Source: Corynebacterium choanae (GTDB taxonomy: Bacteria > Actinomycetota > Actinomycetes > Mycobacteriales > Mycobacteriaceae). Taken from it: 64,000 nucleotides of DNA. Position 1 is the stretch's first letter. Each line of letters begins with the position of its first letter. The notes under the pieces are model-generated. The model did not search any database, was not told the DNA's origin, and saw only the letters and a list, made by a program, of their open reading frames with translations. The position numbers and the translations under genes are program-made. Shown one piece after another: positions 1 to 14,559 of the stretch. The stretch lies in the NCBI RefSeq assembly GCF_003813965.1, contig NZ_CP033896.1:2232001-2296000 (forward strand). Reading direction: 5' to 3'.

Positions 1-425
1 AAGAAGCCTGCACACATAGCGACACCGCCCACGAGGGACAGCCAGAAGCCCAGTGCGTTCAGACGCGGGAAAGCCACGTCAGGTGCGCCAATCTGCAGCG
101 GGAGGATGTAGTTAGCAAAACCCCACAGGATTGGCGTGCCGTACAGCAGCAGCATCAAGGTGCCGTGCAGAGTAAACAGCTGGTTGTACTGTTCGTTTGT
201 CAGAAATTGCAGACCCGTGTGGAACAGCTCAGCACGGATCAGCAGGGCCATGAGACCTGCAACTACGTAGAACACGTAGCTCATGAGCAGGTACATCAGA
301 CCGAGGTTTTTGTGGTCGGTGGTAGTGAGCACCCGCCACGCAAAGTTACCTGGCCGGCCATTGCCCATTGGGGCTGGCCGTGCCGGGGCGACCGAGTGGT
401 CTACCCGAGGCACTACTGCGGTCAT
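1..425 (-). CDS. ctaD: cytochrome c oxidase subunit I, N-terminal part (runs off the window)
   Basis: This is the first ~141 codons of the haem-copper oxidase catalytic subunit, an integral membrane protein of the aa3 oxidase that reduces O2 at the end of the respiratory chain. The translation shows the usual actinobacterial start: a short polar N-terminus, then [17 protein letters not shown] leading into the first transmembrane helix, then the [20 protein letters not shown] segment, whose His is an expected haem a ligand. The start ATG (423-425) is preceded on the minus strand by GGAGGAATCT, a strong ribosome binding site. The 3' end lies beyond position 1. In C. glutamicum, as I recall, ctaD lies directly beside nrdF; here about 13 kb, mostly one giant gene, separates them. 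Confidence 0.95.
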
Positions 426-1370: not shown

Positions 1371-1414
1371 GCAATCCCCGCCAGTACCGTGACCAGGTAC
1401 GTGGCGGGGATTGC
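1371..1414 (-). terminator. strong hairpin, likely terminator of the giant surface-protein gene
   Basis: Perfect 12-bp arms GCAATCCCCGCC (1371-1382) and GGCGGGGATTGC (1403-1414), with a further GTACC/GGTAC pairing inside (1384-1388/1396-1400). It starts 58 bp past the stop of the giant gene, which is read leftwards. No U-run follows on the minus strand, so the terminator role is inferred from position and stability. Confidence 0.65.
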
Positions 1415-1472: not shown

Positions 1473-4400
1473 CTACTTGTCGTCGCGTCGACGGCGTTTT
1501 GCTGCCAGCAGCAGCACACCAATGATGACAAGGAGGAGAGCAACAACCAAGAGTCCGATTACATTTGCACCAGTGAGGGCAAGGTTGGAATCCGACGCAG
1601 AATTGGATTGCTGCGAGGTGGGCGAGTCTTCCACTTCGGTCTGCGGGGCGACTGGTTGCGGCTCCGGGACTGGGGTCGGTGCAACAACCGGTGGTACGGG
1701 CAATGCCGGGGTCATCGTGCCAAGAATGGGGATGATCCCTACGGCAGCGATGAGCCATGCCCAATCCGGAATCGAAGATCCGGAAGACGATCCAGTCGGC
1801 GGAACAGTCGGTGTTGCAGGCTGCTGTGGACGTAAGACATAAAGCGGATCGCTGCCTGTCACGTTCGTAGCGGTTTCCGTCGACTCCGCGGAGGCATTCA
1901 CTGGAATGTTGACGGTTTCTCCGGCGGGCACCGTGACTTCAACGTTCACAGTGACGGTTTGTCCGACACCCAACACCAGCGGCGGGAGGGAAGGATCATC
2001 ACTGAAGACAATTGTCCCTTCGGGCGTGATGCGCAGCATCGGGCCGTCCGCCGGAATACCTGCAGTCGGTGTCGTCTGCTCACCACCGGTGAGGGTAAAG
2101 GTCTTCCCGTCATTAACAGTGAGTCCCTCAACTTTGGGCACCACATGTTCTAGTGGTTCACCGCCATCGTTGGTCAAAGTCACTGTTGCGGTAACAGTTT
2201 CCGCTTCCGCAGGAACCGAAACTGGATCGTTTGGATTATTTCCGTCGCCTGTTTCAATGCTGTCGATGAAAATCTTCGCACCAAGCTGCGGCGCTGCAGT
2301 GTGCGGGCGCCGAGTATAGAAGGCATCCTCAGCACTGACTTGATTCTTGGTGCTTTGATCGATAGCGGTGATGGTCAATGGGGTGTTCACCCCGATTTGA
2401 CTTGCATCAACACTGACCGTACCAATGATCTGCTGCCCTTGGCTGAGTTCAAGGCGTGGCCAGTCTTCATTATCGCTAAGCACTACCAGTCCTTGCGGGT
2501 TGATCCGCAACACCAGTCCGGGGCCGTTGTTGGCCGCCGGGGTTGGAGTGAGAGGACGACCGGCGGGATCAGAGACAGTAAATACCGTCTCGCCCACATT
2601 CGAATTCGGCACCGTCACTGTGATGTCGCTCAGTGGAGCTTCCCCACTATTGGTCATCGACACCGTCACCGGGAAGCTTGTCTGCCCAGGTTCGAGCGTA
2701 ATCTCAACCGCGGATTCGGGTGTTTGCCCGTCCTTCTCAGACACCGAATCTTGGAAAATTTTGCCGGTAATCGCGGCGGTTTGCGCATTCGGGGTCGTAT
2801 ACAGCGGATCAGTGGCTACAAGCGGCTTCTTCGACTCATCATCGGTGGCAGTTGCCTTTACTGGCGTATTACTTCCGACCTGTGACGCTGCAACCTCAAC
2901 GGTAGCAGTCACTGTCTGCCCCGGCTGAAGCACAAGTGCTGGCAGCGATTCGTCGTCACTGCGCACAATTACTCCATCGCGAACCCGCAGCACGGTTCCT
3001 GGCACATCCGTTGCAACGGTCGGAGAATCCGCGCCAGGTCCAGTCAACGTGAACGACACTGTCGCAAAGTCCACCCCGGGAACCTCAACACCGACACCAG
3101 CCAGTGGTGATTCGCCAGCGTTCTCCACCGTAATAGTGGCCGTAAATGGTTTATTAGCCGATACCACTACTGCCGATTCAGCATCCTGCCCGTCGCCGGT
3201 TTCCACGTCTGTATGGAAAATCTTGGCAACAAGTCCACTGTCGCGGGCTACCACTTCAATCGAGGCAGTGGCTGTGCGCTCCGTGGTGGAGACCCCTTCG
3301 TGGCTGCCGCTGGTTGCGGCAGTGTTCGTGGCGCTACCGGCGGCCAGCTGTTTCGAAGTCACCGTTTCCTCTGCAGTACAGGTTGTCGATTCACCGATAG
3401 CCAACGTGCCGTGACCGTCAAGGAACGCTTGATCAGCACACTGCAGCGTACCGCCACGTGCGATCACACCCTCGTCGATGACGACCACATCTTCTAGTGC
3501 TGTAGGTCCAGGATTACGCACAGTAATGCGGTAGCTGATCGCATCACCAACCCGGACTGGTCCTTGAGTTATTGGCGTCTTAGTGATCTCGATGGCAGGT
3601 GCACCAGTGGAGACATCTGCATTGTCCTCGTTTGAGACAATCGGATTTTCGCTGGTACCGACATTTTCAGGATTCGCATTCGACTCGCCGCGGGCAGGCA
3701 CCACCGAAGTTGCGGTAGCAACATTATTGACCCGCTTGGCGTGAACATCGTCAGCGGTGATAGTCATCGGCGCCGATCGGCACTCCGTCTTCGCTCCTGG
3801 GGCGAGCGTAGTCTGCTCACAAGTGATATCGACGCCGCGATCAGCAAGCAGCTTGTCGTGAATAGTTACCTGCGTAATCGTCACATTGCCGTTGTTGGTG
3901 ACGGTGAATGCATATTCCACCTGTTCACCTTCGACATACACCTGCTGCTTGTCCTTAATCTCCTTTTGCAAGGTGATATTCGGACTGTATGCCACCGGCA
4001 CCTCTGCTGAGACAGTGACAGGTTCAACCTTCTTCGCCCCATATTCGGCACTTGCCGATGCGGTATTGACTATCCGATCGAACCCGTCAACCTCATCTTG
4101 AGTCACCTGCTTGTCAAACTCACAGGTAACGTGGTCGCCGTTGTGCTGCAGGGTCGCCCCGGTTGCAGAAGCTAAGACTGCATCGTCGCTGCAGACAATG
4201 TTTGTAACCGTTGCATCGCTGAGCATTGCATCCACGAGCGTCACCCGCTCCGCTGGAGTGTTGCCCTTGTTCGTCACCGTTATGGTGTAGTGAATCACCG
4301 TGCCAACATCCACCTTATCGCCTGCTGGAACATCGTGAGTTTTCACAATCTCCAGCACCGGCAACCCAGTGGAGAAGGTGGCATCGTCGCTGCTGGTGAC

Positions 4401-7400
4401 ACGTTCTGCCACCGGGACGCTGCTATCTTGCGATGGGGTGAGCGCTGTCACTGTTGCCGTATTCTTCACATTTTCGCCAGCGGCAGCCTGCTCCGCGGTG
4501 ACCGTCCACTTCTGCGGAGTACAACTCGTCGAGGCGTTCGGCGCCAGTGGATCAATGTCACAGGTTAGTGGCGCATCACCGAACATGGGATCAGTGATTT
4601 GCAAATCGTGCAGGGTGACATCACCGGTGTTGGTCACCGTGAATTGGTAAGGCACCACATCGCCTTCGGTGAACAGCAGAGTGTCCGCATCGATTGCCTT
4701 TTCCAGTCTTACTGAAGCAACCTTGGACACCGGCACTTCGGTCGATGCTTCTGCCGTGACCGGTACCTTGTGCTTGGCGTCCTCATCAGTGTTGGTGCTT
4801 TCCGTAGGGATGCCGTTCGAGACAGCAGTGGCCGTAGCGGTATTCAGCAGCGGCTTCCCACTGTCAACATCATCCTGGCTGATCGCCCGGGTAGCGCTAC
4901 AGGTCACCGAGTCACCTCGCTTCGCCAGTGTCACACCGACACCTGACACGACAGCATCCTCTTTGCCCTGTTCACATTCGAAGTCTGTAGGGGCAAACAT
5001 TGGATCAACAATGACCACCTGTTCCAATGGCACGTCACCCATGTTGGTGGCAACGAGCGTATAGGTCACCTTATCCTTCGCTTTCACCGGAGCAGAACCA
5101 GCATCACTGCGCTTTGTGAGCACCAGCTTCGGCTCTGCGACTGGCACCGTCTGCGAGTCGTCATCGCTGACTTTGTTGTTTTCATCAACCCCGGCAAGGT
5201 TAGTGCGATCCATCGGTGCCACACCAGTTACTGCCGCATCGTTGATGAGTTTGCCAGAGCTGTCTGCTGCTTCTTCACGGGTGATCGTGTGCTTTGCAGT
5301 TGTGCACGTCATCGACTTGCCAGGAGCAAGTTCGGACGCCGGGCAACTGATCTCATCATCGGCAAACATCGTGTCAGTGACAACAATATTCGACAGTGTC
5401 ACCAGGCCAGTGTTGGTCACCTGCAGGGTGTAGACGACTTCGTCGCCTTCCACATAGGTTTCCTTCACATAGTCAGCGGCAACCAACTTCTCCAAGGTGA
5501 TACCAGCCAAGGTGGCGTTATTGACCGTGGCTGTTGCAACCTGGGTGGATGTCCGCGTTGTGTCCGGATCCGTTGGATGCGGCAGCAGCCGTGAAGCAGT
5601 TGCCGTGTTCACCGTTGTGTTTGCAGCATCAACCTGGGTTTGTGCAATGGTGGTCTGTGCGAAACACGTGACTGATTTACCCGGATCAATGGTGCCAACC
5701 GCATTGGGTGCAACACCTGCACCTGCAGGGCGGTTGCCAGCTTTTGCATCGTCAAGCGAAACGTCCGCATAGCAGGCGACTTCTTGAGCGTCGGCAAATT
5801 GGGCATCATCAACTTCCACGCCAACAGCTGGAGCATTCCCACCGTTGGTAACCACTACTGCCCACTCGACAACAGAACCGGCTTGCACTTCCGGTTCCCC
5901 TGCCGCGTTAAGAACACCACCGGAAACAATCCGCGCATGTTTTTCAATTGCAAGCGCAGGTGTACCGGCGTTGAAGCTAGCTGTCGCAGGCGCCGATTCC
6001 ACCTTCGTACCGGAAGGATCTTCACCAGTGGCCGTAGCAGTATTGAGCCGCAATGATGCGTCAGCATCAGCTGCCGCCTGCTCTTCGGTGACCTGAACAG
6101 TCGCCCGACAGGTGGTTTTCTCACCGGCACCAAGCGATGTCTTGGCACACTGTGGTGTTGTTTGACCAAGCTTGTCATCGCTAATCGCAAGATTGTTGAT
6201 GGTGCGCTGACCAGAATTGGTCACAGTAAACAGATAGGTGAGTTCGTCACCAGCCTCATAGAGCGGCTGCTGGTTCTCAATCGACTTCACCAAGGTAAGG
6301 GCAGCATCCTGCTTCAACTCTGCGGAGTCTTGGCTGGCATTACCATACGGACGGGCATGGAATGAACCATAGGCTTCCGCGTTGTTGGTAATCGATTCGA
6401 CAGAGTCAACCATTGCTTGGGTGATCTTCACCTTCGAGGTACACGTTGTCGATTCTGCAACCCGCAGCGTCGTACCGGACTGAGATACAAGCTCAGGTCG
6501 ACTCGGACACTCGACGACTGGAGAGACTCCCTCGAAGTATTGCGCTAACGCGTCTGTAAGGGTCACATTCTCCAGATCAACGGTGCCAGAATTTTGCACC
6601 GTGATGTTGAAGGTGGCAACATCCCCAACCCCAAATGGTCCAGGCTGGCTCAGGTCAAGCGACTTTTGCACCTGCAAGGCCGCTTCCCCGATAGCAATGA
6701 AATCGTCACTAGTATCGGAAACTTGTTCATCAGGGAAGCGATCTTGCGGCTTATTCGCCGTCACTGTTGCCGTGTTCTCGATGAGATAACCATTCAGTAC
6801 TTTCTCATTAACGGTGACTGGCTTCGACTGACATGTCCGCTGCTCTCCTGGTGCAAGCGTTGCAAACTGACAATTCTCCAATTCATATCCAGCGTTGGAT
6901 AGCAACGGATCGGTGACGACCACATCAGTCAACGTCAACTCACCAGTGTTTTCAACAGTGAACTCATATTGCACCGTATCCCCTTCAACAACGCCTTCCG
7001 GCTCGCTGAAGTGGGTCTTCTTTAACGAGATACTCGCCTTGTTAGAAGTGGTGACCTTCGCATCATCGGTATCTGTTGTGTAGTTATTCCCATTAGCATC
7101 GCCATATTGCGCATATGCGGTGTTGGTGAATTCGGAATGCTCATCAACAACATCTTGCGGGAAATGGGTCCGCGCCAAACAGACAGCAAGAACACCCGGT
7201 TTAATCAAACCGAAGTTTTCAAAGCCATCACGCCGTTCGTAGCGGTCAGGTTCGTTGTAGATATAACAGTAGAAGTGCTCAAGCCCCCACCGTTTGATCT
7301 CATTATCGAAAAGCTTGCCGGTAGTGACATCTGCATTGCCGATGTTTTCCATCACAATGCGGTAGTAGATCGTTTGACCCGGTCGCACCGGTTCGGTGAC

Positions 7401-10400
7401 GAGATCACCGTCAGGCAGCAACACTTCCTTTTCGAAGGTAAGCTCCGGCGCACCAACCTGGACGCTCGCTGAGCCTGTGGCCGGTGACGGATCAATGCCG
7501 CCAGCGCCCTTACCAGTGACCGTGGCCGTGTTAGTGAGTGTCTTTGGTGTTGTAGCTTCATCAGCCGATTCCTGCTTGGTGTCTTCGAGTTTCACCGTAT
7601 AGAAGCCAGTACAAGTGAACTCTTCACCCGGCGCAATGATCGCATCCTCATTGGCGGAGCAATCCAACGTGCCCAGCATCGGATCTTGGATTTGCACATC
7701 CTTGATAGTCGTATTGCCTTCATTGCGGGCAGTTAACGTGTATTGCACCTCAGTGCCTGGCAGCAGCACAGCATCAGCGTCGACAAGCACATTTTTCGCC
7801 AGGGAAAGGCGCGGCTGAGCAGGTGGCGGAGTGATGGTCGCTATATTATTCGAGCGATCATCATCCTGAACAGGGGTATCTACAGCTGCCCCATTATCGC
7901 CAATGACCTGCGCCTTTGCAGTTGCTGTGATGCTATTGACGAGGTTTTTCGCCCGGTCAATATCGGCTTGTGTGTAGGTAACCTGCACATCACAGTTCAC
8001 TTTGTCACCCACTTCGAGCGACAAGGTGCCACTAGAACCGACCACATCGTTGGTTTTCGCGTTGACGCAAGTACCGACGGTGAGGTCTGCTGAGCCTTCG
8101 TCACGGCCAGATAAGGAATCCGTCACAGTGACTTCATTAAGGCGTACATCACCCTTGTTTTCCAAGACAATACGGAACGTCATCGACCCGGAATTTTCCA
8201 AAGTCCCTGGCGTTTCTTTTACCGCTTCACCCTGCGCATTGAGCACAAACTTTTCAGCATCCAACTGTGGTGTGGCCGGAATTGGGCGCACAGCTGCTTC
8301 GGCCCGTACAGGCTCCAGAGTAACCAACTCAGTCGAACCGGACTCGCGGTATTGCGGCACTGCAGAGACAACGTTGGTCTCTGTCTGTTGCTCGGCGAAG
8401 AATTGCTTATCGACAATAAACTTGCCCACGCAGTAAAACTTTTGCTTTGGCGCCAGGGAATCAATGGTGAACTCGGTAGCGCCCTGCTGAGCCGCCGGAT
8501 TTAAGTTCTCCAAGTTTTCACCGCACACTAATGGCACTTCTTGGCCACTGCGACTAAACCTGTCAGCTACCCCAATCCCAAGCAGCGTCACATTTCCGGT
8601 GTTTTCCATGGTGACAGTGAAGGTGCCTTCATCGCGAGGCTTTAAAGCTTGACTATCGACGCCGTTAATCACCTTTTCGATCTTCATACCAGGCTCAGCA
8701 GCCACCACGTTGACTTCCGCGGTGTCCTTCGCGGAAACTTCCCGACCCTCGTATCTACCTGCAATTGATGCCTCATTTTGTAAGGCTTCTTGAGCGTCCA
8801 CATCCTGTTGTGTGACCTTGTAGCTCACCGTACAGGTATAGCGATCATTCGGCTGTAGTACGGCACCACCAACCAAGTCAATGGGTCGCGGCGACTCCAT
8901 TTCCTGCGACTGCACAGTACATATGACATCTATCTTGCGAGCCGCTGCCCACGCATCGGTGAGAATAACCGATTCCAATGGGACATTCCCTGTATTCGAG
9001 CCACTGATTGTGAATGTAGCTGTACTACCGACCGCATACTTCGTTGAACTATCGGCGGATTTCTCCAACGTGATGTTGGGTTCAATCTGCCGAACCGCGA
9101 AATCAACATTCACAATATTGTTCACAGAGCCGTCAGATGCCTTCGGCACGGTAAACGGAACCGTCTTTGCAACCACAGCCTTCGGATCTGTTGATCCACC
9201 ATCGATCACGTTCGCAACACTGATCGAGCTGCTGCCAGGAGACGCGGCCGGTAGGAAGGAATAGTTCTGGATAAACGTTGCTTGATACGAACTATCCACC
9301 CGCAATTCCACGGTGTATCCAGTTCCTGGAGGCACCTTCGGGAACTTATAGTTACCTTGCCCATCAACCTCGACAACCAGGTCTTTCCCGTTGACTTGGA
9401 CTGGCTGACCATCACTGTCTAGCAGATGAGCAGTAACCTTTCCCGCTGGGATGCTGGCCAGTTTGCTACTGTCTTTCGTGATCTCAGTGTCGGTGAGCCC
9501 AAGGTCATAGATCGAACCACTCACCGCTGGAGCAATAGTAATTGCCTGCAGGTCGCAGTTGAATTGCTGATGATTTGGATCATCTGCTTGCTCTTGGGTC
9601 TGTGCCGCACATGTCTCCGCATCGGGCACCTTGATCAAGTCTCGGGTGGAGCCCAAAGCAAAGTTCTTCACGATACCAACGTTGCTGCCAGTAACCCTAA
9701 GCTTTAACGTCACTGTGGCTTTTTTCGCAGAGCCTTCGATATTGTCCGGCGAGACAACCCCTCGATCAGTAAGCAAACCTGGGAACCAGACGATGTGACC
9801 CCCGTTATCCGCAGTCAGTTCCCCTTCATCATCGGCGATAGCCTCGTCGAGCGCGGCATCGTGGTAATCCGTTACCACATCACCGACAGTTTCATCCTCC
9901 ACGGTTTCCACATATTCCAAGCCGGCAGGAATCAAATCTCGGATCATTGGCGACTCTAACACGATGCCCTTTTCAGCAGTTTGCACCGAAATCTTAAAGA
10001 GCACATAGTCGCCGACGCCCAGCACGTAATCGCCAGGATCTGCACCGTCGAACGCCTTGTCGGCTGTATCGGTTCCGCCGCCATTGCCAGGAAGAATCAC
10101 CGATTTATTAATTTTCAATTCGGGTGCATACTTCACCCGCGCCACAGCGGGAGGAACAGTGCCCAGATCGACACCGCTGTCAGAGTTCGAAGCCCGAAAC
10201 GACGCACGGTTAATAGCAATGTCGTCGTCACCAATGCCAGTGCCGTTCGCGTCATTCTTCGGCATCTTCATATTGACTTCGACAAATGCCGGGCCAAGCA
10301 CCAACCCGGTGAACTCTATCCGGAAGTAGCGAACCTGATCCCAGGCAATACCCTTGTCGGCAAGCTGCTCTGCAGTATGCCATTCGCCTAGTGCGTTGAA

Positions 10401-13163
10401 TGTGGTGCACTCAGTTTTCGATGCCGGGAATGGCCCGGTTTTCTGCTCACCCATTTCGGGCCGGCAGGGATCAGAGGAAGTCGAATAGTAGACAGTTCCC
10501 TTCAGAGGCGTTCGAGACCACTGCCCCGAATCAGCATCAAATTTGTTGACCGATGGCAAAGCAATCGGTCCGGTCAACGTTGGCACCAACGTGTTTTCGT
10601 AGGTCTTATCGCCCCCCTCAACCAGGTTTCCATGCTCGTCGTACGTAGGATATGTACCGGCGACTGCTTCCTGATCGCTCTCAATATGGTTGAGCTTCGT
10701 CCATGATTCGCCTGTTGGTAAGGCGTCGTAGAGCACATAGTCCTTGAGCGGGCGAGAACTTTCGCCACCGATTTGCACATAGAAGCTTGCATCGTCGTGA
10801 GCGTAGGACACATCGGCGCGCTCCTCATCCTTCGGCAACCAGGTTGACCAAGGAGCGTTCTCTTCATCTCGGTCACCCTTCGCGAATTTCCGAATAACCG
10901 CCGTAGAGTAGGCGCCAATGGTGACGGGCGCAGTTGACTGAGACCAGCGATGCTGAGTTGAGCAGTCTTTATCTCCCCCTTCAGCAGCTGGATCGCCACA
11001 CAACCTCGGATCGGGGATCGTGGTGAGTGTGGGTTCAAATTTCAACTCAGGGTTATCTGCTGTGAGATAGGCAGCAATCGCCGGTTTCGCTGAGTCAATT
11101 GCGCCGTCGTAACTGCCGTCGACGGCGTTTCTATTCGTAATTTTGTAATAAAAGATACAGGCTCTACCGCTCTCGCCTGGCAGCACCATATTTTCAGGAA
11201 CTGTAAACTTCCACAGTTCACCCCCGGAAGCAGAACCTAGCGGCACTTGCTCCCACTGAATCTTGTTCACATCCAGAGGCACTTGACCTTCTGCAACATT
11301 GCCTACCGAACAGACCACATTTTTCGACGTCGACGAGGGGTCAAAGTGCATTCCGAACGGAATTTCGACATATCCCATTGGCCGTAGTGCATCCAAACCC
11401 AGGTTAATCAGCCTAATACCCAGGGTCGCGGTATCGGAGGCCTCGTTGATGGTGCTGTCTTTATTGGTGTCAATTTCGATTTGCGGCTGGACGCGCTGCG
11501 GATAAATCTCGATGACGTCCGGATCCGTGGCAGTAATAACATTGCCATTGGATGGCGTAATTTCCAGTTTTGCGTCATTACCCAGATGAATGTAGTCCAG
11601 GTCGCCGAACATTTCAGTTGGGTAATCAACCGGCCCTCCGGCTCGGAATACTAATTCAGAGTTTGCTGGAACGTTTTTAAACGTAAACTCAAATCCCGTC
11701 GCCTTAAAACCCTCTGGTTTGTTCAATTCATAGGCTTTGAACGAACGGTCTTCATCCGCGGGGAAGGTCTGGCTAGGCGCTTTGTTGCCGTCTTTGTCGA
11801 CCAGAACGACCTGCAGTTCCGGGTGGCCACGCACCAGACTTGGTTTACCATTTTCGTCATACTTGATTAAGTCGATTTGCCGAACCGACAGACCCTGGAA
11901 ATTCATGTAATAGTTGTCGTCACCACCTGAAACCTCACATTCGAAATTTTTGTATTCCGTTTGAGATTTTGCGTTGTAATGGAGACACTTCTGCGGCCGC
12001 AGCTCGTCGATGATCTTGATGTCGCCATCGACATAATTCCCAACCACAAACTCGTAGGTTGCTGTTTGTCCGTCGTAGGTTTTCATCCGCGAAGATGGTG
12101 TAGAGCGCTTTGTAAACCTAGATCCGACTGTGCTTTCGATTCGCAGGGGTGCTTGCTGGTCAACCGCAATACCCGGATCCCCTTCTTGATAAGTTTTGCT
12201 CCCATCGATGCTCTGAATGGCAACCCCGTCAGTCCAACCAATTTTTGCCGGAGGCAGCGGCCCTACTGGCGCATCATCTTTCACGCGAACCCACAACTTG
12301 ATTTCTGTTGTCAGATTCGTAGAAACCCCATAATCCAGTGTTTTATCGACAGTTACACGAACGCCTTTATCAGTTTTCTCAATATATTGAGCGCCGATAA
12401 AACGAGAAGGGTCAACTACCCTGAACTGCCCCCTTCTGTCATTGACGATTTCCTCATAGGTGTAATTGTCTCGGCTGTCTAATTCTGGGTTGAGGACAGC
12501 GAGGAGTTCTACTTCTTCCGGAAGTTCAACGTCGAAAGAACCGGTCACACCATTTCGGCCGATAGCATTTTTCGATATATAAACAGCTGAAAGTATCAAG
12601 GTTGAGCCGGGTAACGTCCTTTTAGCATTGTAACCGATTCGGAATTCGGTCTGTGGGGAACCCGTCAGCTCTACCTGAGTCTTACCGGTTACTTCATGGC
12701 CGTCTTTGGTGATTTTCCAGTCGACTTCCTCGACACCAGCAAACGCAGGGTTATCTCGTGTCGTCCAATAGAGTTGGAGCGATTGAACACCGGGACCGCT
12801 ATATTTGTAGGTCACCGTCGGATTGTCCGAGGCGGCATTTTCGATCGCTAAACCACTGGGGATGGTCTGAAGCACCGCATTGAACCCAGCGATCTTCGGT
12901 CGCTGAACTTCAATCTTCATGCCATCGCAACCAGCCGATGCACAGTTGATATTGAATTCCAGCGCTAAATTCCCTTTGGTCGGAACCGGCTTGGAGGTGA
13001 CCTCGACGGATTGCAGTCCGTCAATGGCAGTGGCTGCCCGTGCTACTGCCGGGTGAACTACTTGCACACCAACGGCGACTAGCACTACGGCACATAGCAA
13101 TGCGAGCAGCCTACTGAGATCTTTTGACCGTTGAGCTGATTGGGGGACTCTAGGTTCCAACAT
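1473..13163 (-). CDS. giant sortase-anchored surface protein with 15 consecutive DUF11/DUF7507-like repeats
   Basis: A secreted wall-anchored protein of about 3,896 aa, one uninterrupted frame. I chose ATG 13161-13163 because GAGGAAATC precedes it; an in-frame ATG 21 codons upstream lacks a site. Layout by rough residue: signal peptide 1-43 (hydrophobic core, then AVARA-ATA); non-repetitive head about 44-1010; one divergent repeat about 1010-1210; an SdrD B-like segment about 1213-1350; 15 consecutive repeats of about 130 aa (1357-3308); three different repeats of about 155 aa beginning with a KIF motif (3308-3774); a Pro/Thr/Ser-rich linker; sortase-type motif LALTG (3861-3865), hydrophobic helix and RRRR tail. 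The 130-aa units carry VTNTG, TDxxF and LAPG motifs and each holds two cysteines. Such repeats usually form stalks for adhesion or biofilm; the ligand is unknown. No sortase gene is in the window. Confidence 0.9.
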   Translation of the reverse strand: MLEPRVPQSAQRSKDLSRLLALLCAVVLVAVGVQVVHPAVARAATAIDGLQSVEVTSKPVPTKGNLALEFNINCASAGCDGMKIEVQRPKIAGFNAVLQTIPSGLAIENAASDNPTVTYKYSGPGVQSLQLYWTTRDNPAFAGVEEVDWKITKDGHEVTGKTQVELTGSPQTEFRIGYNAKRTLPGSTLILSAVYISKNAIGRNGVTGSFDVELPEEVELLAVLNPELDSRDNYTYEEIVNDRRGQFRVVDPSRFIGAQYIEKTDKGVRVTVDKTLDYGVSTNLTTEIKLWVRVKDDAPVGPLPPAKIGWTDGVAIQSIDGSKTYQEGDPGIAVDQQAPLRIESTVGSRFTKRSTPSSRMKTYDGQTATYEFVVGNYVDGDIKIIDELRPQKCLHYNAKSQTEYKNFECEVSGGDDNYYMNFQGLSVRQIDLIKYDENGKPSLVRGHPELQVVLVDKDGNKAPSQTFPADEDRSFKAYELNKPEGFKATGFEFTFKNVPANSELVFRAGGPVDYPTEMFGDLDYIHLGNDAKLEITPSNGNVITATDPDVIEIYPQRVQPQIEIDTNKDSTINEASDTATLGIRLINLGLDALRPMGYVEIPFGMHFDPSSTSKNVVCSVGNVAEGQVPLDVNKIQWEQVPLGSASGGELWKFTVPENMVLPGESGRACIFYYKITNRNAVDGSYDGAIDSAKPAIAAYLTADNPELKFEPTLTTIPDPRLCGDPAAEGGDKDCSTQHRWSQSTAPVTIGAYSTAVIRKFAKGDRDEENAPWSTWLPKDEERADVSYAHDDASFYVQIGGESSRPLKDYVLYDALPTGESWTKLNHIESDQEAVAGTYPTYDEHGNLVEGGDKTYENTLVPTLTGPIALPSVNKFDADSGQWSRTPLKGTVYYSTSSDPCRPEMGEQKTGPFPASKTECTTFNALGEWHTAEQLADKGIAWDQVRYFRIEFTGLVLGPAFVEVNMKMPKNDANGTGIGDDDIAINRASFRASNSDSGVDLGTVPPAVARVKYAPELKINKSVILPGNGGGTDTADKAFDGADPGDYVLGVGDYVLFKISVQTAEKGIVLESPMIRDLIPAGLEYVETVEDETVGDVVTDYHDAALDEAIADDEGELTADNGGHIVWFPGLLTDRGVVSPDNIEGSAKKATVTLKLRVTGSNVGIVKNFALGSTRDLIKVPDAETCAAQTQEQADDPNHQQFNCDLQAITIAPAVSGSIYDLGLTDTEITKDSSKLASIPAGKVTAHLLDSDGQPVQVNGKDLVVEVDGQGNYKFPKVPPGTGYTVELRVDSSYQATFIQNYSFLPAASPGSSSISVANVIDGGSTDPKAVVAKTVPFTVPKASDGSVNNIVNVDFAVRQIEPNITLEKSADSSTKYAVGSTATFTISGSNTGNVPLESVILTDAWAAARKIDVICTVQSQEMESPRPIDLVGGAVLQPNDRYTCTVSYKVTQQDVDAQEALQNEASIAGRYEGREVSAKDTAEVNVVAAEPGMKIEKVINGVDSQALKPRDEGTFTVTMENTGNVTLLGIGVADRFSRSGQEVPLVCGENLENLNPAAQQGATEFTIDSLAPKQKFYCVGKFIVDKQFFAEQQTETNVVSAVPQYRESGSTELVTLEPVRAEAAVRPIPATPQLDAEKFVLNAQGEAVKETPGTLENSGSMTFRIVLENKGDVRLNEVTVTDSLSGRDEGSADLTVGTCVNAKTNDVVGSSGTLSLEVGDKVNCDVQVTYTQADIDRAKNLVNSITATAKAQVIGDNGAAVDTPVQDDDRSNNIATITPPPAQPRLSLAKNVLVDADAVLLPGTEVQYTLTARNEGNTTIKDVQIQDPMLGTLDCSANEDAIIAPGEEFTCTGFYTVKLEDTKQESADEATTPKTLTNTATVTGKGAGGIDPSPATGSASVQVGAPELTFEKEVLLPDGDLVTEPVRPGQTIYYRIVMENIGNADVTTGKLFDNEIKRWGLEHFYCYIYNEPDRYERRDGFENFGLIKPGVLAVCLARTHFPQDVVDEHSEFTNTAYAQYGDANGNNYTTDTDDAKVTTSNKASISLKKTHFSEPEGVVEGDTVQYEFTVENTGELTLTDVVVTDPLLSNAGYELENCQFATLAPGEQRTCQSKPVTVNEKVLNGYLIENTATVTANKPQDRFPDEQVSDTSDDFIAIGEAALQVQKSLDLSQPGPFGVGDVATFNITVQNSGTVDLENVTLTDALAQYFEGVSPVVECPSRPELVSQSGTTLRVAESTTCTSKVKITQAMVDSVESITNNAEAYGSFHARPYGNASQDSAELKQDAALTLVKSIENQQPLYEAGDELTYLFTVTNSGQRTINNLAISDDKLGQTTPQCAKTSLGAGEKTTCRATVQVTEEQAAADADASLRLNTATATGEDPSGTKVESAPATASFNAGTPALAIEKHARIVSGGVLNAAGEPEVQAGSVVEWAVVVTNGGNAPAVGVEVDDAQFADAQEVACYADVSLDDAKAGNRPAGAGVAPNAVGTIDPGKSVTCFAQTTIAQTQVDAANTTVNTATASRLLPHPTDPDTTRTSTQVATATVNNATLAGITLEKLVAADYVKETYVEGDEVVYTLQVTNTGLVTLSNIVVTDTMFADDEISCPASELAPGKSMTCTTAKHTITREEAADSSGKLINDAAVTGVAPMDRTNLAGVDENNKVSDDDSQTVPVAEPKLVLTKRSDAGSAPVKAKDKVTYTLVATNMGDVPLEQVVIVDPMFAPTDFECEQGKEDAVVSGVGVTLAKRGDSVTCSATRAISQDDVDSGKPLLNTATATAVSNGIPTESTNTDEDAKHKVPVTAEASTEVPVSKVASVRLEKAIDADTLLFTEGDVVPYQFTVTNTGDVTLHDLQITDPMFGDAPLTCDIDPLAPNASTSCTPQKWTVTAEQAAAGENVKNTATVTALTPSQDSSVPVAERVTSSDDATFSTGLPVLEIVKTHDVPAGDKVDVGTVIHYTITVTNKGNTPAERVTLVDAMLSDATVTNIVCSDDAVLASATGATLQHNGDHVTCEFDKQVTQDEVDGFDRIVNTASASAEYGAKKVEPVTVSAEVPVAYSPNITLQKEIKDKQQVYVEGEQVEYAFTVTNNGNVTITQVTIHDKLLADRGVDITCEQTTLAPGAKTECRSAPMTITADDVHAKRVNNVATATSVVPARGESNANPENVGTSENPIVSNEDNADVSTGAPAIEITKTPITQGPVRVGDAISYRITVRNPGPTALEDVVVIDEGVIARGGTLQCADQAFLDGHGTLAIGESTTCTAEETVTSKQLAAGSATNTAATSGSHEGVSTTERTATASIEVVARDSGLVAKIFHTDVETGDGQDAESAVVVSANKPFTATITVENAGESPLAGVGVEVPGVDFATVSFTLTGPGADSPTVATDVPGTVLRVRDGVIVRSDDESLPALVLQPGQTVTATVEVAASQVGSNTPVKATATDDESKKPLVATDPLYTTPNAQTAAITGKIFQDSVSEKDGQTPESAVEITLEPGQTSFPVTVSMTNSGEAPLSDITVTVPNSNVGETVFTVSDPAGRPLTPTPAANNGPGLVLRINPQGLVVLSDNEDWPRLELSQGQQIIGTVSVDASQIGVNTPLTITAIDQSTKNQVSAEDAFYTRRPHTAAPQLGAKIFIDSIETGDGNNPNDPVSVPAEAETVTATVTLTNDGGEPLEHVVPKVEGLTVNDGKTFTLTGGEQTTPTAGIPADGPMLRITPEGTIVFSDDPSLPPLVLGVGQTVTVNVEVTVPAGETVNIPVNASAESTETATNVTGSDPLYVLRPQQPATPTVPPTGSSSGSSIPDWAWLIAAVGIIPILGTMTPALPVPPVVAPTPVPEPQPVAPQTEVEDSPTSQQSNSASDSNLALTGANVIGLLVVALLLVIIGVLLLAAKRRRRDDK

Positions 13164-13530
13164 GATTTCCTCACTGTGAGCCGGTCCGGGAATGGGGTTT
13201 TTCTGCCAGCAGGCAGAAAATTCCATGATTCTAAGCTATCACCTACAGAACACACAGCTTTTTATACAGGGGTGCGCAGCAAATTCTCTATGTCGGGTTA
13301 ACCCAACTTCGAACCAACCCACTTGTCGACGAGGGCGGTATTTTCCCAGGTCAGCACAGCAAATCGTTCGCGCAAACAGTGACAGACACCACAGATGCCG
13401 GCGCAAAATGATGAGCATTTGAGATTACTTAAAGGTATTAGATAATCACTTTTGATTCAGCCACAGCGCAAAACGGCGCCGCCTGCACAGTGCAGACGGC
13501 GCCTTGCTGCGTTTTCAATCCCTAGAGGAG
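13164..13530. other. intergenic region between nrdF and the giant gene
   Basis: It holds the nrdF terminator (13475-13503) and must hold the promoter of the giant gene. An AT-rich stretch at 13404-13460 and a perfect 10-bp palindrome GGGTTAACCC (13295-13304) are visible. I could not place a convincing -35/-10 pair. The palindrome could be an operator, but no known regulator motif fits it. Confidence 0.5.
13475..13503 (-). terminator. terminator of nrdF
   Basis: Arms GGCGCCG-c-CTGCAC (13475-13488) and GTGCAG-a-CGGCGCC (13490-13503) form a nearly perfect 14-bp stem. On the minus strand it is followed by GTTTTGCG. It lies 28 bp past the nrdF stop. Confidence 0.85.

Positions 13531-14559
<1,029 letters not shown>

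Follow-up and report, generated by a model that had tools for sequence, protein, structure and literature searches.

The described proteins that come closest to the one reported here are the CLIPPER and CLIPPER_2 fibrillar adhesins, whose repeating units belong to the families DUF11 (PF01345) and DUF7507 (PF24346). Passages of the paper on them (PMC12617251) predict isopeptide bonds in DUF7507, document such a bond for DUF11 by crystallography, and report disulfides in 34.9% of DUF7507 domains. The window analysed here, a 64,000-nucleotide stretch of the Corynebacterium choanae genome (NZ_CP033896.1, positions 2,232,001–2,296,000), encodes on its minus strand a giant protein that is alike in its tandem units with Lys-Asp-Asn triads, its signal peptide, its sorting signal and its great length. 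We read it as a known kind of molecule, a putative fibrillar adhesin stabilised by isopeptide bonds, whose form is nevertheless unusual: a single genome carries six giants that are colinear, the head belongs to a new family, the stalks are exchangeable, and divergence is concentrated in the outer head.

A family of giants and its distribution

Searching the genome (2,986,773 bp) with the head of the window protein gave nine matches in seven genes. The window gene (paralogue A; 3,917 aa in its longest form) has 15 stalk units, as have E (2520946–2532480; 3,844 aa) and F (2637673–2649261; 3,862 aa). Paralogues B, C and D (3,914, 3,399 and 3,944 aa; 13, 11 and 13 units) lie in tandem at 2786491–2822163, flanked by genes for a queuosine precursor transporter and tgt. 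The seventh, G (533066–536764; 1,232 aa), keeps head and anchor and has no stalk. Together the six giants (3,399–3,944 aa) occupy 68,658 bp, or 2.3% of the genome, and all 88 DUF7507 matches in the genome fall inside six open frames with the lengths of these giants.

The best local alignments between giants show 32–39% identity and mostly run near full length, those of C–F and D–F being shorter. For stalk units 1–9, the best match in another paralogue occupied the corresponding place in its stalk in 258 of the 270 comparisons; the units of A share 42% identity with same-position units (units 1–11), as against 31% with other positions and 31% within A. Since the giants are colinear repeat by repeat, the entire gene was duplicated, and the ancestor was a giant already. 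Recent exchange between paralogues was considered and rejected, the longest exact DNA common to them being 25 bp. In a tree of the heads, strongly supported on just two of its eight inner branches, with two long rows and an unsure root, the seven heads of this genome form one group (support 92/93), inside which the stalk-less G is nested beside B and F (99/98). Given that position, G would most simply have lost its stalk.

The head family is, as far as sequence searches tell, rare and patchy in Corynebacterium and is mounted on other stalks by other species. Its profile matched 7 of 242 genomes of the genus, with full heads in five (this genome, G018, G024, G043 and C. pygosceleis, G139) and partial ones in G086 and G199. 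Of 401 genomes sampled across 31 genera of the family, three matched the head, all of them Corynebacterium; both counts are lower bounds obtained with first-look filters. Against 5.8 billion proteins, the window head returned four proteins, each on a contig as long as this genome, and the head of G024 as query gave three relatives. With a full-length alignment as query (best 120 of 152 matches), the head was found only in the C. pygosceleis protein among the matches listed, one further listed match being weak in the head (E 2.7e-4). C. pygosceleis has an nrdF 92% identical to that of C. choanae, yet its single head gene is only about 24% identical; because of this disparity, the family has either diverged very fast or lost many members. 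In G018, the head gene is in two frames of 1,055 and 2,130 aa (L043, 597–10288).

DUF7507 itself is more widespread, with matches at or below E 1e-10 in 23 of the 242 genomes, several of which encode proteins of 3,050–4,452 aa with other heads. The 4,394-aa giant of G112 (L056, C9:315001–335000), which bears another head, is flanked by pks13 and a carboxylase gene resembling accD, inside the mycolate-synthesis neighbourhood. C. pygosceleis carries two DUF7507 proteins in tandem (L062, 1561–16177; 2,278 and 2,284 aa, 72% identical to each other) with another head. Antisense to the giant gene of G011 (L058, 3749–16996, plus strand), and over most of its length, runs a frame of 4,415 codons without a stop, a caution for gene calling by length.

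The locus was compared across the genus by searching for nrdF and the start of ctaD in the 242 genomes. Among the matches listed, 150 nrdF and 117 ctaD rows were taken (ctaD rows were left out where the genome had no nrdF row among the matches listed), giving 112 genomes common to both lists and 111 with both genes on a single contig and strand. The gap between the two genes was below 1 kb in 100 of these 111; the widest were 13.1 kb (this genome), 10.2 kb (G208) and 5.0 kb (G070), and by eye no LAxTG giant was seen among the frames of the latter two inserts. In G112, the closest genome by both genes among the matches listed (nrdF 93%, ctaD 89%), the gap is 860 bp. The giant therefore occupies this place in one of 111 genomes compared, and is specific to it among these. 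A sequence-only reading had taken the gene for a species-specific insertion between ctaD and nrdF: the site specificity stands, but the insertion is not a lone one, for the genome has five more giants and, without a stalk, a seventh relative.

In the window, the gene is read from a minus-strand frame (1473..13226, ATG start, 3,917 aa; residue numbers below follow this frame) with zero internal stops in translation. An ATG at 13163 is preceded by GAGG, and a typical signal peptide, read directly, begins there; because of these two features the gene likely spans 1473–13163 and encodes 3,896 residues. The single uninterrupted 11.7-kb frame and the secreted giant of the sequence-only reading are both borne out by this. 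The two neighbours, recognised by profile models as that reading had named them, are on the same strand: upstream, nrdF (13531..14544; 479.7 bits with the class 1b NrdF model, whose cut-off is 355) and, downstream, the first 141 codons of ctaD (3..425; CtaD model E 6e-38, under the full-length cut-off). Past the stop codon lie an inverted repeat, a possible terminator (1371..1414, arms 1371–1383 and 1402–1414), and two copies of a 22-bp repeat (1317–1360). The GC content of the seven family genes is 0.53–0.58, that of the window gene being lowest (0.534) and that of the remainder of the window 0.57, so that composition is not decisive on foreign origin. As a sign of phase variation, a scan was made for homopolymers alone, and it found none of seven or more in the 400 bp upstream or the first 200 bp of the seven genes.

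Stalk and head

Signal peptide, head, 15 DUF7507-like units, three Cys-free repeats and anchor follow one another along the chain, in agreement with the several kinds of domain in order that had been proposed. The stalk (residues 1383–3308; 3303..9080) consists of 15 DUF7507 (CLIPPER_2) units, each with exactly two Cys and a Lys/Asp/Asn triad; the DUF7507 profile scored 650 bits on the protein, against a cut-off of 27, in 14 stretches. Across the six giants, all 82 units have exactly two Cys, and all 82 have the isopeptide triad Lys, Asp/Glu, Asn (76 KDN and 2 KEN by alignment; in the other four the Lys lies beyond the aligned stretch and was located in the sequence). Because every unit carries both, we predict that each is doubly cross-linked, by an isopeptide bond and a disulfide. 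The Cys pair is not special to the giants of this genome, since other Corynebacterium giants have two Cys in 117 of 120 units (seven proteins scored, the G011 protein left out). As a side observation bearing on the recycling of a disulfide oxidase, this genome gave no VKOR family match, while the C. glutamicum control gave one.

A model of two stalk units is confident (pLDDT 91.7). A structure search with it returned generic Ig-like proteins, with no CLIPPER structure among the matches listed, and a PDB search with the stalk profile gave weak matches, the best being SPB1 pilin (E 0.08) and the grappling hook protein GhpA (E 0.22). Beyond the stalk, repeat analysis delineates three Cys-free, Ig-like C-terminal repeats (residues 3346–3791; 1854..3191).

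At the other end, the signal peptide (residues 22–65; 13032..13163), read from the translation by eye, is followed by the head (residues 66–1036, about 970 aa; 10119..13031), a post-head domain with Lys-Asp-Asn positions (residues 1037–1235; 9522..10118) and a stretch that by eye only is CnaB/SdrD_B-like (residues 1236–1380; 9087..9521), the last two with no Pfam match. The description of the head as non-repetitive needs qualification. Its Pfam matches are weak and assign it to no known family; according to the predicted model, the head is itself a chain of Ig-like beta-sandwich domains, with a fold resembling the Ig-like domains of pilins and adhesins. The head profile matched no sequence in the PDB, and no known adhesive Pfam family was recognised in 10 heads, a DUF11 match in head B being weak and below cut-off (16.0 vs 24.6). 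The model for the isopeptide-forming fimbrial domain D2 (TIGR04226) had no match in the window protein at E 0.01; it is matched by paralogue E.

K780-D834-N1006 of the last head domain and a PCRP motif are conserved without exception in the 10 heads, which come from several species. The triad of the second head domain is kept in 9 of the 10, the window protein having lost it (I197, V233, A327). Mean pairwise identity among the six giants is 27%, 30%, 28% and 32% in the outer head (residues 66–195, 196–365, 366–575 and 576–770), 49% at the head base (771–1036) and 47% in the post-head domain (1037–1235), with 40% in the stalk and 34% in the C-terminal repeats. In 100-residue windows, the C-terminal repeats drop to 30–31% at 3601–3800 and the stalk to 28–29% at 3001–3300, where B, D and C are without units and the alignment is disturbed. 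The outer ~700 residues are thus the longest poorly conserved stretch, though not the sole one.

Anchor and pre-anchor segment

The LALTG-type anchor of the sequence-only reading was recovered both from the tail and by an LAxTGA pattern search: LALTG at residue 3882 (1569..1583) is followed by the hydrophobic stretch VIGLLVVALLLVIIGVLLL and KRRRR, the membrane segment and RRRR tail together spanning 1476..1562. This is the layout of a class E sortase substrate, and class E sortases recognise LAXTG, according to PMC5148588. Two sortase genes were found elsewhere in the genome, one of class E (NF033747, 252.7 bits vs cut-off 160) and one of class C.

Ahead of the anchor, at residues 3816–3849 (1680..1781), the tail contains a hydrophobic segment with the core WLIAAVGIIPILGTMTPAL. 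The LAxTGA DNA pattern occurs at 28 places in the genome, and a reversed control pattern at 21; 12 of the 28 are in-frame sorting signals (11 by filter, with paralogue C added by hand after failing it). All 12 proteins, one of them a pilin whose tail reads LARTG, show a hydrophobic stretch before the motif (best 15-residue mean 2.07–2.70), while just 3 of 557 ectodomain windows reach 2.0 or more. Of the LPxTG proteins of this genome, two pilins were looked at, and these reach only 0.75 and 1.23. Among proteins of other Corynebacterium species, 2 of 13 reach 2.0 before the anchor; in a second set, 0 of 33 outside the head family and 1 of 6 inside it do so, and in the head relatives of C. pygosceleis, G043, G024 and G018 the segment is absent or weak.

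These observations have led us to a tentative idea, suggestive and contested, which we hold as possible rather than probable: that Corynebacterium proteins which class E sortase ties to peptidoglycan traverse the outer mycomembrane through a hydrophobic, proline-rich segment of their own, about 40–60 residues before LAxTG. The giants would then get through it by one such segment and carry their diversified head about 100 nm outside. If so, the segment would offer a testable answer to how a peptidoglycan-anchored protein passes the outer lipid layer of corynebacteria. We also considered whether absence of the segment goes with absence of mycolates. G024 counts against so simple a mycomembrane rule: its head protein has no such segment, yet Pks13 and FadD32 score over cut-off in that genome, which also has two genes of the esterase family (mycolyltransferase-like). 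A Pks13 motif had no match in those parts of the C. choanae genome that were scanned, and a limited literature search of titles and abstract openings found no description of such a segment crossing the mycomembrane.

Two further observations concern the same genome. Four further LAxTG-anchored proteins (L066, L082, L088, L089) share a pre-anchor segment that is of the GSSAGSILPVVLGLGALAGI type or resembles it. A pilus cluster at 2707191–2715492 encodes a VWA protein (1,353 aa), a SpaA-type pilin (540 aa), a class C sortase and a pilin of 307 aa whose tail is LARTG and which has a pre-anchor segment.

Function and comparison with known systems

Because six giants share one stalk order and differ at their tips, we consider it probable that they form an adhesin repertoire, made up of fibrillar proteins that class E sortase anchors and whose diversifying tips recognise different partners; the bonds, the anchoring, the surface exposure and the binding are what we infer. 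The protein would be secreted by its signal peptide and joined at LALTG to the cell wall by the class E sortase. With a Lys-Asn isopeptide bond and one disulfide locking each of them, the fifteen DUF7507 units would make a stiff, protease-resistant stalk. With head and last repeats, some 26 Ig-like domains at roughly 4 nm each would extend to an estimated 100 nm and hold out the N-terminal head, whose outermost domains may bind a partner beyond wall and lipids. The layout of a fibrillar adhesin, namely a signal peptide (by eye), a repetitive stalk and a sorting signal in that order, is present, and the adhesion or cell–cell contact proposed earlier would fit this anatomy. The paralogues, six of them of about 3,900 residues, moreover offer a ready-made series, with variation in stalk length (11, 13 or 15 units), in tip sequence and in whether there is a stalk at all, which lets one ask what tether length and double cross-linking are for in bacteria.

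The same proteins could instead be a self-associating scaffold, stalks or heads binding each other or copies on neighbouring cells to hold biofilms or chains together, with tip variation giving kin-specific sticking. We regard this as rather unlikely: no homotypic interface is known, and the outer head is more variable (27–32%) than the whole stalk (about 40%). Less likely still is a surface coat, a forest of ~100-nm fibres repelling phage, predators or host molecules, whose outer parts vary under escape selection. The outlay of six large genes on some 2.3% of the genome and the bias of divergence towards the tip would suit such a shield, but it needs no conserved head base, where K780, D834, N1006 and the PCRP motif are invariant, and paralogue G retains head and anchor without any stalk. 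That the gene is an artefact of frameshift or misassembly, or a decaying pseudogene, is very improbable, since the same single-contig genome encodes five other giants that are likewise intact, similar in length and for the most part colinear, and the frame has no internal stop, even if the split head gene of G018 shows that members can break.

The adhesin repertoire that we favour can be set against several known systems. Staphylococcal SdrD-type MSCRAMMs likewise carry an Ig-like head on a stalk with a wall anchor; the giant, however, has no SdrG/Big family match in its head and, by eye, no Ser-Asp region, and with N2-N3 / SdrG domains not recognised in the head we do not file it as a member. 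Corynebacterium SpaA-type pili likewise combine Ig-like isopeptide domains, a sortase and disulfides, whereas the giant is predicted to be a single chain attached by class E sortase rather than a class-C polymer, and the genome has its separate pilus cluster. In PMC, we found no literature on giant, DUF11 or LPXTG proteins of Corynebacterium.

Closer to hand, the other Corynebacterium giants (G112, G113, G165, G011, G012 and G084; 3,050–4,452 aa) also have a DUF7507 stalk and an LAxTG or LPxTG tail, but the head profile is at chance level in them, apart from G084, where 54 model positions are matched weakly (E 4.5e-5); the G011 giant, covered by the whole-genome head search only, had no head match. 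These giants come one per locus fetched, as opposed to the two in tandem in C. pygosceleis. Conversely, the head relatives in C. pygosceleis, G043, G024 and G018 share the ~970-aa head and an LAxTG-like anchor but differ in their stalks, with 20 SdrD_B stretches in G043 and 12 in G024, an SdrD_B-like stalk by eye in G018, and SdrD_B plus related families in C. pygosceleis. The head is an uncharacterised family placed by different species on different stalks. Compared with the CLIPPER adhesins, finally, the C. choanae giants are set apart by a head that belongs to no family known to Pfam and that these searches recovered from Corynebacterium alone, by a Cys pair in 82 of 82 units as against the 34.9% of DUF7507 domains given disulfides in those passages of PMC12617251, and by the presence of six colinear paralogues in one genome.
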